A DNA stretch of 64,000 nucleotides. Origin: Sphingomonadaceae bacterium. Lineage in GTDB: Bacteria > Pseudomonadota > Alphaproteobacteria > Sphingomonadales > Sphingomonadaceae. The translations under genes were made by a program, and so were the position numbers. The notes below the pieces were generated by a model that searched no databases, was not told the DNA's origin, and was given only the letters and a program-made list of their open reading frames with translations. Positions within the stretch are counted from its first letter, which is position 1. Every line of letters begins with the position of its first letter. Location: the NCBI GenBank assembly GCA_947463325.1, contig CANHQT010000001.1, positions 62,001 through 126,000 on the forward strand, read 5' to 3'. Of the stretch, positions 10,565 through 63,827 are shown one piece after another.

Positions 10565-10735
10565 TCACTCACCACCGGGGAGTAGCCAGCGGCGCCGGGC
10601 CATGGGCTCAGGCGTCGGGGCCGCATCAACATGCTTGGCCGAAAGGTCATGGTGCGGCCGGGACAGCGTTATGCGCGCCTGTCCAAGGCAAGACCGCTGA
10701 TGATGGGCCTTTCCGCCACGCCGGGCGGGAAAGGC
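10565..10735 (+). promoter_or_regulatory. yybP-ykoY-like manganese riboswitch
   Basis: GGGGAGTAGCC (10577-10587), ATCAACATGC (10625-10634) with a GGCCGAAAGGTC hairpin, and CAAGGCAAGACC (10684-10695), in the canonical order; followed by a TMEM165/GDT1 gene. Hairpin gcctttccgcc/gggcgggaaaggc follows. Confidence 0.8.
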
Positions 10736-50738: not shown

Positions 50739-51328
50739 GCCGGCATTTCCCCTCGTTCGCGAAGATATCCGAGCAGGGGCAGTAGCGGCATGCCGAGGAT
50801 GGCAAAATGATCACCCCGCACGCGATCGAACAGCTGAACGCCTGGTCCCTCCAACCGAAAACAGCCAACGCAACCAGCGATCGCTGGCCATTCTTCATCA
50901 AGATAGGCTTCGATGAACTCCGCCGACAGTGAACGTACCATCAGCCGGGCCTCTTCAACATGGCGCCACACCGGCCGACCACCTTCTGCTACGACCACGG
51001 CGCTCACCAAAGTCATCGTACGACCGGAGAAGAGCGCGAGATGGCGGGCAGCTTCGGCACGGTCAGCTGGCTTCTCGAACAGCCGCCCATCGACAGCAAC
51101 CACAGAATCACTGCCGACCACCAATGCTGCGCTGTGAGCGAGCGAGATTTTCACCGCTTTCAGCTCGGCCAGCGCGTCGGCGACCTGTCGTGGACCGTGA
51201 CCCTCGGCGAGCAGCGCATCCTTGACCGCGCTCTCGTCGACATGCGCGGGCATTGCTTCATAGGCAACAGCAGCGGCATCGAGCATTGCCCGCCGACTGG
51301 CACTTTGCGAGGCAAGTATGACCGTCAT
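50735..51328 (-). CDS. maf: Maf-like nucleoside triphosphate pyrophosphatase
   Basis: VILASQSASRRAMLDAAAVAYEAMPAHVDE, VVGSDSVVAVDGRLFEKP, YLDEEWPAIAGCVGCFRLEGPG. Confidence 0.94.
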   Translation of the reverse strand: MTVILASQSASRRAMLDAAAVAYEAMPAHVDESAVKDALLAEGHGPRQVADALAELKAVKISLAHSAALVVGSDSVVAVDGRLFEKPADRAEAARHLALFSGRTMTLVSAVVVAEGGRPVWRHVEEARLMVRSLSAEFIEAYLDEEWPAIAGCVGCFRLEGPGVQLFDRVRGDHFAILGMPLLPLLGYLRERGEMPA

Positions 51329-52152
51329 ACCGAGCCCTGCAATCTTTGTGCGCGGCGGTCCTCACACAGTTTGATAATCGCTGCTGCGGTTTCTTCGATC
51401 GATCGCCGTGTGACATCGATCACCGGCCAGTCATTGTCGGCAAACATGCGGCGCGCATAGGCGATTTCGCGCTTCACCGCTTCCTCGTCGGCATAGCTGG
51501 TCTCACGCGTTTCGCCGAGCGCTGAGAGGCGGTTGCGGCGCACAGCCACCAAACGATCCGGGCTGGTGGTGAGGCCTACGACAAGAGGATTTCCGAGCGA
51601 GAACAATGTGTCCGGTGGCGGGGATTCCGGGACTATGGGGATGTTCGCGGTCTTGTAACCGCGATTAGCGAGATAGATGGATGTCGGTGTTTTCGATGAA
51701 CGCGACACGCCGGCAAGGACAATGTCGGCATCTTCCCAACCTTCAGGCGACACGCCGTCATCATGCGCCATGGTGTAATGGATTGCCTCCACCCGTGCAA
51801 AATAGGCGGCATCGAGCATATGTTGCCGACCTGGCCGTGCTTTGGCTTCCTGGCCTAACATGCGCGACAATGCGTCGGTCACCGTGTCGAGGGCAGGAAC
51901 GACGGGCAAGCCGAGTGCAAGGCACCGCCGTTCAAGCTCTGCACGCAAATCCCGATTGACCAGTGTGAATAGCACCAGCCCGGGATTGTCAGCGATTTCC
52001 GTCAGGATACGTTCGAGATGTGGGCGATTGCGCACCATCGGCCAAAAATGGCGCGTTACGGAAACATCATCGAACTGGGCGAGCGCGGCTTTGGCGATAT
52101 TTTCCAGCGTCTCGCCGGTGGAGTCGGAGAGGAGGTGCAAATGCAGCTTCAT
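51325..52152 (-). CDS. ppsR: Pyruvate,phosphate/water dikinase regulatory protein (kinase/pyrophosphorylase, DUF299/RP001-type)
   Basis: LHLLSDSTGETLENIAKAALAQF, EAIHYTMAHDDGVSPEGWEDADIVLAGVSRSSKTPTSIYLANRGYKTANIPIVP. Confidence 0.95.
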   Translation of the reverse strand: MKLHLHLLSDSTGETLENIAKAALAQFDDVSVTRHFWPMVRNRPHLERILTEIADNPGLVLFTLVNRDLRAELERRCLALGLPVVPALDTVTDALSRMLGQEAKARPGRQHMLDAAYFARVEAIHYTMAHDDGVSPEGWEDADIVLAGVSRSSKTPTSIYLANRGYKTANIPIVPESPPPDTLFSLGNPLVVGLTTSPDRLVAVRRNRLSALGETRETSYADEEAVKREIAYARRMFADNDWPVIDVTRRSIEETAAAIIKLCEDRRAQRLQGSV

Positions 52153-52421
52153 CCCGCCTTCTTTGTGGATGGTCTGTGGATAAGGCAAGGGACGCTTTTG
52201 ATCAGCAATTCTTATCCTCGGCACTTCCGATTCCATCCACAGGCAAGTCCCCGGGTGGCCTGCTCCATCCACAGCCTGTGGATAGCGAGGATGAAAAACA
52301 CGACTCGCGCTGCTTCCATGAGTCGTTTTTACCTAGCTGTTGGCAAAGCCGGCACAGCCGATTATGCCCCCATCATCCCGCCCCCAACAGATTCCAACAT
52401 GAAAGAAAGAGTCTAATTTTT
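52153..52421. other. oriC: Candidate chromosomal replication origin (oriC) with DnaA-box cluster
   Basis: DnaA-type nonamers: TGTGGATGG 52164-52172, TGTGGATAA 52175-52183 (perfect reverse TTATCCACA), CCATCCACA 52233-52241 and 52265-52273, TGTGGATAG 52277-52285; ppsR/RP001-hemE junction; coding strand diverges here. Confidence 0.8.
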
Positions 52422-53465
52422 ATGGGGACATGCCCGCCAGCACTTGTCGACAATGCAATCATGGCCGTGCTGCGCGGCGAGCGGATTGATCCTCCACCGA
52501 TGTGGCTGATGCGTCAGGCCGGACGTTATCTGCCTGAGTATCGCGCCTTGCGGGCGGACAAGGGTGGGTTTCTCGAACTGGTGCATGACAGCGAGGCGGC
52601 ATGCGAAGTGACAATCCAGCCGCTGCGCCGGTTCGATTTCGATGCCGCCATCCTGTTTTCGGATATCCTTGTGGTGCCGCACGCCATGGGACAGGATCTG
52701 TGGTTCGAGGCGGGCGAAGGACCACGGTTGGCTCCCCGGATCGCGGAAACGGCACTGGAAACGTTGAAACCTGCGCCTGAGAGGTTGGAGCCGGTTTATC
52801 AGACAATCCGTCTGCTCAAAGCTGCTTTGCCTGCCGGGCGGGCGCTGCTTGGCTTTGCCGGCAGCCCCTGGACGATTGCGACCTATATGGTCGATGGACA
52901 GGGTTCCAAGGATCATGGTGCCGCACGACGGATGGCCTATGCCGACCGCGAGCGTTTTGCCGCGCTGATTGAGGCTATTGTCGAAGCGACGACCGATTAT
53001 CTCATCCGTCAGGTCGAGGCCGGGGTCGATGCAGTGCAGTTGTTCGACAGTTGGGCGGGCAGTCTTGCTCCGGACGAGTTCATGCGCTGGGTGGTTGAGC
53101 CCAATCGGGCGATTGTCGACCGGTTCCGGGCCGCCTGTCCAGGGGTGCCAGTGATCGGATTCCCCAAGGGTGCGGGTGCCAAGCTGCTTGATTATGCGAT
53201 CGCGGTGAAACCCGATGCACTAGGCGTGGATGAAACCATTGATCCGGTTTGGGCGGATCGGATGTTGCCCGCTGGCCTCCCCGTGCAGGGCAACCTCGAT
53301 CCTCTGCTTTTAGTAGCCGGGGGTGATGCACTTGATGCCGGGATTGACCGTATCCGTGCCGCTTTTGCCAATCGCCCGCATATCTTCAACCTCGGCCACG
53401 GTATCGTGCCTGACACGCCGATCGCGCATGTCGAGCAGTTGGTACAGCGGGTAAGGGGCGGTTGA
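52422..53465 (+). CDS. hemE: Uroporphyrinogen decarboxylase
   Basis: PPMWLMRQAGRYLPEYRALR, FDFDAAILFSDILVVPHAMG, GFAGSPWTIATYM, VQLFDSWAGSL, QGNLDPLLL. Confidence 0.97.
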   Translation: MGTCPPALVDNAIMAVLRGERIDPPPMWLMRQAGRYLPEYRALRADKGGFLELVHDSEAACEVTIQPLRRFDFDAAILFSDILVVPHAMGQDLWFEAGEGPRLAPRIAETALETLKPAPERLEPVYQTIRLLKAALPAGRALLGFAGSPWTIATYMVDGQGSKDHGAARRMAYADRERFAALIEAIVEATTDYLIRQVEAGVDAVQLFDSWAGSLAPDEFMRWVVEPNRAIVDRFRAACPGVPVIGFPKGAGAKLLDYAIAVKPDALGVDETIDPVWADRMLPAGLPVQGNLDPLLLVAGGDALDAGIDRIRAAFANRPHIFNLGHGIVPDTPIAHVEQLVQRVRGG

Positions 53466-59502: not shown

Positions 59503-59520
59503 TTGTTCCACGTGGAACAA
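59503..59520. promoter_or_regulatory. parS: parS site 1
   Basis: Perfect palindrome TTGTTCCACGTGGAACAA between mnmE stop and mnmG start. Confidence 0.93.
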
Positions 59521-59574
59521 GCGGTCTGCCTCGATTCTTCTCATCGGGGCTCCGACCAGCTATGGCGCCGGGCA

Positions 59575-61437
59575 ATGCATGAATTTGACATCATTGTTGT
59601 CGGCGGCGGTCATGCCGGGGTCGAGGCGGCCTGTGCTGCCGCGCGCGCGGGGCAGGGTGATGGGTTGCGCGTCGCTTTGCTCACCTTTGACGCGGCCAAG
59701 ATCGGCGCAATGTCCTGTAACCCCGCTATCGGTGGATTGGGCAAGGGCCATTTGGTTCGGGAAGTTGACGCGCTTGATGGTGTGATCGCCCGCGCCGCCG
59801 ACGCTGGGGCGATACACCACCGCATGCTGAACGCATCGAAGGGTGCGGCCGTTCAAGGGCCGCGCGTTCAGGCCGACCGCAAGCTGTTCGGGGCAGAAGT
59901 CCGGCGCATCGTTGCTGCCCAGCCTGGCTTGTCAGTGATCGAAGGCGAAGCAGCGGCTCTCGATTTGGCGGGTGGCGGGGTTTCAGGACTGGTGCTGGCC
60001 GACGGGAGGCGAATTGCTGCAAGGGCGATTGTGCTGGCGACCGGCACTTTTCTCGGCGGGCGGATGTTCCGCGGGGAAGAGGTCTTGGAGGGTGGTCGCA
60101 TCGACGAGGCTGGAGCCCACCGGTTGGCGCGGCAGCTGCGCGATGCGGCGTTGCCGATGGCCCGCCTCAAGACGGGTACGCCGCCGCGCCTCGATGGTCG
60201 CACCATCGACTGGGCACGCCTGGAGGAGCAGCCGAGCGACACAGGTGACTGGACCATGTCGGCGATGACTAGCCGCCGGCAGGTGTCGCAGGTCAGCTGC
60301 TTCATCACACGGACCAACATTGCGGTCCATGACCTGATTCGTGAGAACCTCCATCGTTCACCGATGTTCACCGGGGCGATTGGCGCCCAGGGGCCGCGCT
60401 ATTGCCCATCGATTGAGGACAAGATCCACCGCTTCGCTGACCGCGACTCACATCAGATCTTTCTGGAACCGGAGGGGCTGGACACGCATCTCGTATATCC
60501 GAACGGCATTTCCACCTCGTTGCCAGCCGATGTGCAGCATCAGATGCTTCGCCTGATGCCGGGCCTTGCGGCCGTGGAGATGGTCGTCCCTGGTTATGCC
60601 GTGGAATATGACCATATCGATCCCCGCGCACTTGATCGGACGTTGATGGTTCGCGCTATTCCCGGGCTCTATTGTGCTGGCCAGATCAACGGCACTACGG
60701 GCTATGAGGAAGCCGCAGCGCAGGGACTGTGGGCCGGAACCAACGCGGCGCTGGCGGTGCTTGGGCGCGACCCCTTCCTGCTCGATCGCTGGCAGGCCTA
60801 TATGGGCGTGTTGATCGATGATCTGGTTCTGTCTGGGGTGAGCGAGCCCTATCGCATGCTCACCGCGCGCGCCGAACATAGGCTGCGCTTGCGGGCCGAC
60901 AATGCGGAGGCGCGCTTGTCTGCCGTTGGCATCACTTCCGGTCTGATTGGGGCGCAGCGAAGCGATCTTATAGAGCGGCACAATAGTCAGCGCGTGACAG
61001 CAGCGGAGATTCTGGCGCGGCCCGTGGACTCTGCAACCCTTCGTGGCGCGGGCATTCCCATTCCCGGGGATGGCGAGCGGCGGTCACTGGCTTATTGGTT
61101 GGGTGCGGCCGATCCCGCAGCGTGGCAGGTGCTCGTGTCCGCCGCATCCGGCCTGGCGGACATAGACGCAGCAGTGCTGGCCGAACTGGTGGAAGACGCG
61201 CGCTATGCCCCCTATGTCGCCCGGCATGAGGCAGAGCAGAGGGCACTCGCAGCCAATGAACGAATCACACTCGATCCGGCTATCGATTATCGGGCGATCG
61301 CCGGACTTTCGAACGAGATGGTCGAACGATTGGATCGTGCGCGGCCAGAAACATTGGGGCAAGCGGGCCGTGTGCCGGGCGTGACACCCGCCGCCCTTAC
61401 CGCCATTCTCGCCCACAGCCGGCGTACCGCTGCGTGA
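59575..61437 (+). CDS. mnmG: tRNA uridine-5-carboxymethylaminomethyl(34) synthesis enzyme MnmG
   Basis: [68 protein letters not shown]-track start 59485 rejected. Confidence 0.98.
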
Positions 61438-62081
61438 CTCAATTGCTGACGACTGAAGCTGAGGCGCGCGCCTATGTTGAAGCCCTCCCGGGTGTTTCAC
61501 GTGAAACGATGGATCGGTTGGATTGCTTCGCGCAACTGCTCGCGGAAGAAAATGCCCGGCAAAATCTCGTAGCAAAGGCGACGCTGGGTGATGCCTTTTG
61601 GGTTCGACATTTGGCGGATAGCGCTCAACTGCTTCGGTTGGCACCAGATGATGCCCGTGACTGGATCGATTTGGGGAGTGGTCCGGGTTTGCCTGGCCTA
61701 GTCATCGCAATCCTGTCCGAGTCGCTGCAGGTGACATTGGTTGAATCCCGACGACTGCGCTGCGCATTTCTCAGGGCGGTTGTTGCACAGCTCAGTTTGG
61801 GTGATCGGGTCACGGTCTCTGAGCAGCGGGTAGAGGGCATGATACCGCGCGCCTATGGGGTGATTTCGGCCCGCGCGTTCGCTCCCCTGCCCCGTCTTTT
61901 GGGCGGCGCCCGTCATTTGTCCGGGCCCGGGACGATTTGGCTGCTTCCCAAGGGAAAAAATGCGGTTAATGAGCTTTCAGCACTTCCGCAAAACTGCCAG
62001 AGAATGTTCCACGTGGAACAGAGCCTGACAGACCAGGAGGCGCGGATTCTCGTCGGTGATGGTGTTCCACCACCCCTTTGA
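61434..62081 (+). CDS. rsmG: 16S rRNA (guanine527-N7)-methyltransferase
   Basis: [40 protein letters not shown]; directly after mnmG. Confidence 0.95.
61493..61508. promoter_or_regulatory. parS: parS site 2 (inside rsmG)
   Basis: TGTTTCACGTGAAACG, 15/16 match to TGTTTCACGTGAAACA; encodes part of GVSRET. Confidence 0.9.
62005..62020. promoter_or_regulatory. parS: parS site 3 (inside rsmG)
   Basis: Perfect palindrome TGTTCCACGTGGAACA; encodes part of MFHVEQ. Confidence 0.92.
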
Positions 62082-62101
62082 GCCGGAAACGGACGCACGG
62101 C

Positions 62102-62884
62102 ATGATTCGAATCGCCATAGCCAATCAGAAAGGCGGGGTCGGAAAGACCACGACTGCGATTAACTTGGCGACCGCGCTCGCAGCGAGCGGTTGGCGGACC
62201 CTGCTGATCGATCTTGATCCGCAGGGCAATGCTTCGACGGGCCTTGGTATCGCGGCGGCCAATCGGGACCTGTCCTCCTACGACGTGCTGGGCGGCGAGG
62301 CGTCGATCTCCGAGGCCGCCATTGCTACCCGGATTCCTCGGCTAGACATCGTGCCGGCGACGGTCGACCTTTCGGGGTCAGAAATTGAGCTGGTGGGTGC
62401 CAGTGATCGCACGCACCGCCTGAAGGGCGCGCTTGATGCCGTTCCGGCGGGGCAGTGGGATATCTGCCTGATTGATTGTCCGCCGTCGCTCGGGCTTCTC
62501 ACCCTTAACGCATTGATTACAGCTGATTCTATCTTGGTGCCTCTGCAGTGCGAGTTTTTCGCCCTCGAAGGCCTCAGCCAGCTGCTGCAGACGGTCGAGC
62601 GTATCCGTGCGCGGTTTAATTCCGATCTGGCCATTCTCGGTGTGGCGTTGACGATGTTCGACCGACGCAACCGGCTGACCGATCAGGTGGCGGCTGATGT
62701 TCGGGAATGTTTGGGCGGAATCGTGTTCGACAGCGTCATTCCTCGAAATGTGCGCCTGTCCGAGGCGCCTAGCCATGGGCTTCCTGCATTGGTCTATGAT
62801 CATCGCTGCGCAGGATCGCTGGCCTATATTGAGCTGGCCCGCGAGGTGATCGCGCGCCTGCCGTCACTTAAGAAGGCTGCCTGA
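62102..62884 (+). CDS. parA: Chromosome partitioning ATPase ParA
   Basis: MIRIAIANQKGGVGKTTTAINLATALAASGWRTLLIDLDPQGNASTGLGI; LIDCPPSLGLLTLNAL. Confidence 0.98.
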   Translation: MIRIAIANQKGGVGKTTTAINLATALAASGWRTLLIDLDPQGNASTGLGIAAANRDLSSYDVLGGEASISEAAIATRIPRLDIVPATVDLSGSEIELVGASDRTHRLKGALDAVPAGQWDICLIDCPPSLGLLTLNALITADSILVPLQCEFFALEGLSQLLQTVERIRARFNSDLAILGVALTMFDRRNRLTDQVAADVRECLGGIVFDSVIPRNVRLSEAPSHGLPALVYDHRCAGSLAYIELAREVIARLPSLKKAA

Positions 62885-62885
62885 G

Positions 62886-63827
62886 ATGAACGGAGACCGG
62901 CCCGACCAATCGGCTGCTGCTCCACGCGCAAAGCGCCCTGCAGGGCTCGGGCGGGGCCTTTCGGCTTTGCTCGGCGATATACAGGTCGACGCACCGGTCC
63001 ACAGCGCGCCGGGTACCCCCACCCGCAACGGCCTAGCCATGCTGCCGATTGCCGAGGTCCACCCGCATCCTGATCAGCCACGTCGCCATTTTGATGAAAA
63101 TGCGCTCGCCGAGCTTGCTGATTCAATCGCGGCGCGGGGACTGGTTCAGCCTATCCTCGTCCGCCCCGCTCCCGACGGTAATGGCTGGCAACTGGTCGCT
63201 GGTGAGCGGCGCTGGCGCGCTTCTCAGCGGGCCGGATTGCACCAGATTCCGGCGATCGTGCGGGACCTTGATGACAGCGATACCTTCACCATTGCGCTCA
63301 TCGAGAATATCCAGCGTCAGGATCTGACGGCCATCGAAGAAGCGCAGGCTTATGCCCGAATGCGCGATCAACTGGGCCATGGCCAGGATGCCATTGCGCA
63401 GATGACAGGCAAGTCGCGCAGTCATATCGCCAATATCTTGCGCCTGCTCGACCTTCCGGAAAGCATCCGTGAGCTGGTGTCCACTGGCCAGATCGGTATG
63501 GGGCATGCGCGAGCGCTGATCGGTTATCCCGATGCGGAGGCATTGGCTCGTACGATTGTCTCCAAGGGGCTTTCGGTGCGTAAGGTTGAGGCGCTGGTCC
63601 GCGCAGCGCGCAATGCCAGCGCAAGTGCGGCCAGATCAGCTGCGCGCCCCGCCGCGCCCTCGCCGGATGCTGACATTGCTGCGCTCGAGCGGCATCTTTC
63701 AGACCTTTTGGGGGTGGCCGTGCGAATCGTTCATCAGACCGATCATCGCGGTAGCCTAACGCTTGATTATAGCAGCCTCGAACAGCTGGACATGTTGTGC
63801 CAGCGCCTCACAGGCGAGCAGTTCTGA
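62886..63827 (+). CDS. parB: Chromosome partitioning CTPase/DNA-binding protein ParB
   Basis: GLGRGLSALLGD, HPHPDQPRRHFDENALAELADSIAARGLVQPILVRP, GERRWRASQRAGLHQIPAIV, LIENIQRQDLTAIEEAQAY, SRSHIANILRLLDLP. Confidence 0.98.
   Translation: MNGDRPDQSAAAPRAKRPAGLGRGLSALLGDIQVDAPVHSAPGTPTRNGLAMLPIAEVHPHPDQPRRHFDENALAELADSIAARGLVQPILVRPAPDGNGWQLVAGERRWRASQRAGLHQIPAIVRDLDDSDTFTIALIENIQRQDLTAIEEAQAYARMRDQLGHGQDAIAQMTGKSRSHIANILRLLDLPESIRELVSTGQIGMGHARALIGYPDAEALARTIVSKGLSVRKVEALVRAARNASASAARSAARPAAPSPDADIAALERHLSDLLGVAVRIVHQTDHRGSLTLDYSSLEQLDMLCQRLTGEQF

Follow-up and report, generated by a model that had tools for sequence, protein, structure and literature searches.

The ppsR-hemE gap as the predicted chromosomal replication origin in a small sphingomonad-type genome

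hemE-side origins and the setting of the gap

A chromosomal origin of replication (oriC) linked to hemE has been described for Rickettsia. In Caulobacter crescentus, experiments mapped the origin (Cori) to the stretch between hemE and COG1806; it contains five sites each for DnaA and CtrA and a single IHF site (PMC1914354). An earlier sequence-only reading of the present DNA cited the Caulobacter oriC as lying next to hemE and the RP001 gene. The Caulobacter parS lies about 8 kb from Cori (PMC6399470). For Sphingopyxis granuli TFA, a hemE-side oriC has been proposed that holds several conserved DnaA boxes together with a DNA unwinding element (DUE), and DoriC predicts hemE-side origins for most Sphingomonadaceae (PMC4741004).

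Here, several independent lines of evidence show where replication most probably starts in a small genome of the sphingomonad type. The gap between ppsR and hemE (52153-52421) in the window, meaning the whole 64-kb stretch of DNA analysed, is very probably the chromosomal oriC (probability about 0.94), where DnaA is predicted to bind and replication to fire. The case rests on position, a cluster of DnaA boxes, conservation, a skew switch and the proximity of parS. Since hemE-linked origins are already described in Caulobacter, Rickettsia and Sphingopyxis, this represents a further case and an ordinary find. The Cori-type features are all found here, namely the neighbours (hemE and COG1806/DUF299), a DnaA-box cluster (five in Cori), an AT-rich region, a strand-composition switch (in keto skew) and close parS sites (7.3-9.8 kb here, about 8 kb in C. 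crescentus), and several GANTC sites are also common to both (PMC1914354, PMC6399470). S. granuli TFA and other Sphingomonadaceae share the hemE-side gap, the DnaA boxes, the proposed DUE and the surrounding gene order; nothing basic differs from the S. granuli TFA oriC, the host here being another, small (2.29 Mb) sphingomonad.

The gap and its boundary genes are as follows.

51325-52152, minus strand: ppsR (DUF299/COG1806/RP001), left boundary gene (NCBIfam NF003742, 331.9 bits)
52153-52421, no strand: predicted oriC, the entire ppsR-hemE gap (DnaA-box cluster, skew switch, conservation, nearby parS)
52422-53465, plus strand: hemE, uroporphyrinogen decarboxylase, right boundary gene (TIGR01464, 387.6 bits)

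The gap is 269 bp long and corresponds to C1:114153-114421 on contig C1 (237 kb), the assembly comprising 57 contigs for a genome of 2.29 Mb. Both flanking genes named in the sequence-only reading were confirmed by NCBIfam, and the most likely start of hemE is at 52422. To the right of hemE lie rho, mnmE and mnmG (NCBIfam), then rsmG, parA and parB, named from sequence. Open frames cross the gap, but what is conserved in it are boxes and blocks, with changes in length, and not a coding pattern. Among the 58 loci found with PpsR, hemE adjoins ppsR in the same divergent arrangement in 56, with a gap of 281-474 bp. No tRNA was found within the 64-kb window, and its sole Rfam match lies outside the gap: a manganese (yybP-ykoY) riboswitch at 10565-10684 (RF00080, 50.9 bits versus a gathering score of 45).

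DnaA boxes, conserved blocks and the AT-rich end

We counted as DnaA-box-like any nonamer that differs from TTATCCACA at no more than two positions. The boxes and the other blocks of the gap are listed below.

52164-52172, minus strand: DnaA-box-like nonamer CCATCCACA, 2 mismatches (consensus scan)
52175-52183, minus strand: perfect DnaA box TTATCCACA (top strand TGTGGATAA), one of four perfect copies in the genome
52212-52220, plus strand: weak DnaA-box-like nonamer TTATCCTCG, 2 mismatches (consensus scan)
52233-52241, plus strand: DnaA-box-like nonamer CCATCCACA, 2 mismatches (consensus scan)
52265-52285: head-to-head DnaA-box pair CCATCCACAGCCTGTGGATAG (52265-52273 plus, 52277-52285 minus), the best-conserved block in the gap
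52286-52293, plus strand: G-rich block right after the box pair (cGGGGA in relatives), from conservation
52384-52399, plus strand: two CCAACA repeats 10 bp apart (bottom strand TGTTGG) beside the AT-rich stretch, of putative role
52399-52423, no strand: AT-rich stretch, probable DUE (80% A+T in 25 bp)

Six DnaA-box-like nonamers thus lie within 122 bp (52164-52285), one of them perfect, one with a single mismatch and four with two. The sequence-only reading had listed five and was one short: its perfect box (52175-52183) and its one-mismatch box (52277-52285) stand, and the two-mismatch boxes number four, not three. This is the densest 122-bp window on the 237-kb contig, with at most three boxes elsewhere and a background of 1.19 per kb. 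The 7-mer ATCCACA occurs five times in the box stretch, once in the remaining 63.7 kb of the window and 223 times in the 2.29-Mb genome; by a Poisson estimate, finding five copies within 120 bp at any place in the genome has a probability of about 2e-7. The tight inverted pair at 52265-52285 occurs once genome-wide, and the only other inverted box pair no more than 30 bp apart has a 15-bp spacer. No copy of TGATCCACA, which we take to be the Caulobacter-type box consensus, was found in the gap.

In many bacteria oriC adjoins dnaA. This common adjacency would speak for an origin elsewhere, for instance at dnaA on contig C27, the gap region being merely origin-like; the assembly is moreover fragmented, and the ATCCACA positions rest on the first 100 of the 223 matches. 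We regard such a location as very improbable, because dnaA is surrounded only by weak, scattered boxes without a cluster, as expected for Sphingomonadales, in which dnaA is not conserved near ori (PMC8116508), and because the parS sites and the skew switch (see below) mark the ppsR-hemE gap.

Across 27 aligned Sphingomonadales relatives, the conserved elements of the gap are the leftmost TGTGGATAA-like box, the head-to-head pair CCACAGgCTGTGGATA with cGGGGA behind it, a repeat of the CCAACA type and the AT-rich end. TCCACA, as in the box at 52233-52241, is present in the gap of 55 of 56 relatives. The motif CCAAC lies close to the hemE end in 29 of 37 relatives, and the CCAACA repeats might serve as a single-strand DnaA contact or as an element of the hemE leader. 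Two CAAC copies 2-8 bp apart near the AT-rich end were also observed in 14 of the 37, against 0.28 expected from shuffles.

The AT-rich stretch that the sequence-only reading had noticed before hemE is real: the best 25-mer, at 52399, reaches 80% A+T, a level met by a fraction of 1.7e-5 (less than 0.002%) of the 25-bp windows of contig C1. It lies more than 100 bp from the last DnaA box. In the basal unwinding system, DnaA-trios lie at most 16 bp from a DnaA box, and the published search pattern for them is very permissive (PMC8287927).

The boxes could instead serve DnaA only in regulating the divergent ppsR and hemE promoters, with replication starting elsewhere. Both promoters must indeed fit in the gap, and DnaA doubles as a transcription factor in Caulobacter (PMC3193534). 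Such a purely regulatory role is nevertheless most unlikely: it is here that the skew switch comes together with the AT-rich element and the exclusive parS cluster, and no equally close inverted box pair exists elsewhere in the genome. Furthermore, a promoter and terminator scan of the gap found nothing, no sigma-70-like promoter passing. A TTGGCA-17-TATGCC pair at 52340-52368 may be a weak hemE promoter; TTGGCA is exact in just 13 of 37 relatives.

Strand composition and partitioning sites

Skew was computed on contig C1 and on 160-kb stretches from six relatives (five of them Sphingomonadales) centred on the ppsR-hemE junction, and the significance of the switch was assessed with 300 shuffles of 2-kb blocks. 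The sequence-only reading had named a skew minimum far from 52.2 kb as grounds for rejecting its call, a check that the call passed in keto skew. The cumulative keto (G+T) skew of contig C1 reaches its minimum at C1:113342, about 0.9 kb from the gap midpoint, with keto skews of -0.023 to the left and +0.034 to the right, a switch reached by none of the 300 shuffles; the GC-only skew, in which the signal is weaker, dips broadly and is lowest 18 kb from the gap. In the six relatives, the centred keto minimum lies at -7.7 kb (8 of 300 shuffles), -1.4 kb (0), -8.1 kb (4), -1.1 kb (47), +3.0 kb (105) and +0.2 kb (0) from the junction, the switch being weak and non-significant singly in two of the six (47 and 105 of 300 shuffles). 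The best uncentred change point is elsewhere in two relatives. Sampling of the 3.0-Mb scaffold of Sphingomonas sp. AX6 gave no clean skew across the genome, and this scaffold was set aside. The divergent ppsR/hemE pair may contribute part of the local switch.

The partitioning elements lie to the right of the gap.

59505-59518, no strand: parS-like site GTTCCACGTGGAAC (palindrome search)
61494-61507, no strand: parS site GTTTCACGTGAAAC, perfect palindrome (palindrome search)
62006-62019, no strand: parS-like site GTTCCACGTGGAAC (palindrome search)
62078-63827, plus strand: parA (62078-62884) and parB (62886-63827), chromosome partitioning, named from sequence

The parS palindrome TTYCACGTGRAA has three copies in the whole 2.29-Mb genome, all within 59505-62019 of the window, 7.3-9.8 kb from the ppsR-hemE gap, and none elsewhere. 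One is near the mnmE-mnmG junction, another near the junction of mnmG with rsmG, and the third within rsmG. The keto skew, these sole parS sites, parA/parB, the gene order and the conservation of the gap all support the assignment as oriC made in the sequence-only reading.

From the anatomy of the gap and from established origins, we infer that DnaA binds the gap, that unwinding takes place at its hemE end and that replication fires in both directions. DnaA-ATP would assemble on the boxes, starting from the perfect one (52175-52183) and from the conserved head-to-head pair (52265-52285). Once formed, this complex would melt the AT-rich stretch next to hemE (52399-52423), where the helicase would be loaded and from which replication would proceed outward both ways. 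The new origins would be segregated by ParB sitting on the three parS sites 7-10 kb off.

CtrA, IHF and CcrM sites

Whereas Cori is bound by CtrA at five sites and by IHF at one, the gap here matches neither consensus. CtrA sites (TTAA-N7-TTAA) are absent from the gap and occur in only 2 of the 56 relatives. The strict IHF consensus WATCAANNNNTTR, degenerate sites being outside this search, has no match in the gap or in any of the 56. The absence of CtrA sites fits the dispensability of CtrA in Sphingomonas melonis (PMC8116508). Sphingomonad origins thus keep the Caulobacter address and not the CtrA and IHF sites, and CcrM sites are plentiful in them.

52229-52413, no strand: five CcrM-type GANTC sites, at 52229, 52302, 52320, 52390 and 52409 (motif count)
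52302-52306, no strand: CcrM site GACTC, closely following the box pair (GANTC at the aligned position in 18 of 27 relatives)

The density of GANTC is 18.6 per kb in the gap versus a contig mean of 1.7 per kb, the motif being scarce across the window (133 observed versus 277 expected). The ppsR-hemE gaps of 38 Sphingomonadales, with the S. paucimobilis group entered once, hold 141 GANTC versus 42.6 in shuffles, a 3.3-fold enrichment, and seven other palindromes of equal base make-up number 11-61 each in the same gaps. In the S. paucimobilis group there are 9-11 GANTC per gap of about 303 bp, versus some 2-2.7 per kb in the locus around it, and the fixed GANTC bases are invariant at 84% of positions versus 67% for the other gap positions. 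As a rough control, intergenic GANTC runs at about 1-3 per kb with a home-made gene caller; these densities are only rough because the caller missed hemE in the genome itself and failed to place the origin gap in two relatives. Enrichment of GANTC in intergenic regions in general is known (>1.5-fold; PMC3973325). For sphingomonad origins, we found no published report of it within a limited literature search, and the accessible part of the Sphingopyxis account mentions neither GANTC enrichment nor the absence of CtrA/IHF sites nor the proximity of parS (PMC4741004). All nine genomes searched (this one and eight others) encode CcrM-type RAMA proteins, and GcrA was found in this genome.

The oriC of Escherichia coli bears Dam/SeqA sites. 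The likeness is one of analogy only, an adenine-methylation motif being clustered in the origin (GATC there, GANTC here), and the methyltransferase (CcrM here), the motif and the gene neighbourhood are all different. We know of no SeqA-like partner for GANTC/CcrM. The enrichment hints at control linked to methylation, and it is conceivable, though rather doubtful, that sphingomonad origins without CtrA sites use clustered GANTC instead of CtrA against re-initiation, like GATC/Dam in E. coli. This control role is a speculation worth testing, since GANTC sites are known in Cori and yet deletion of ccrM left Caulobacter replication control undisturbed (PMC3973325). A GANTC-rich origin allows one to ask whether origin methylation limits initiation where CtrA does not.

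Clustering of GANTC at the origin was also seen in the loci L016, L018, L020, L023-L027, L029-L031, L033 and L034. Outside the window, C1:228430-228926 and C1:236567-237070 each reach 6 GANTC in 269 bp, one of them with the tandem run GATTCGAATCGAATC.
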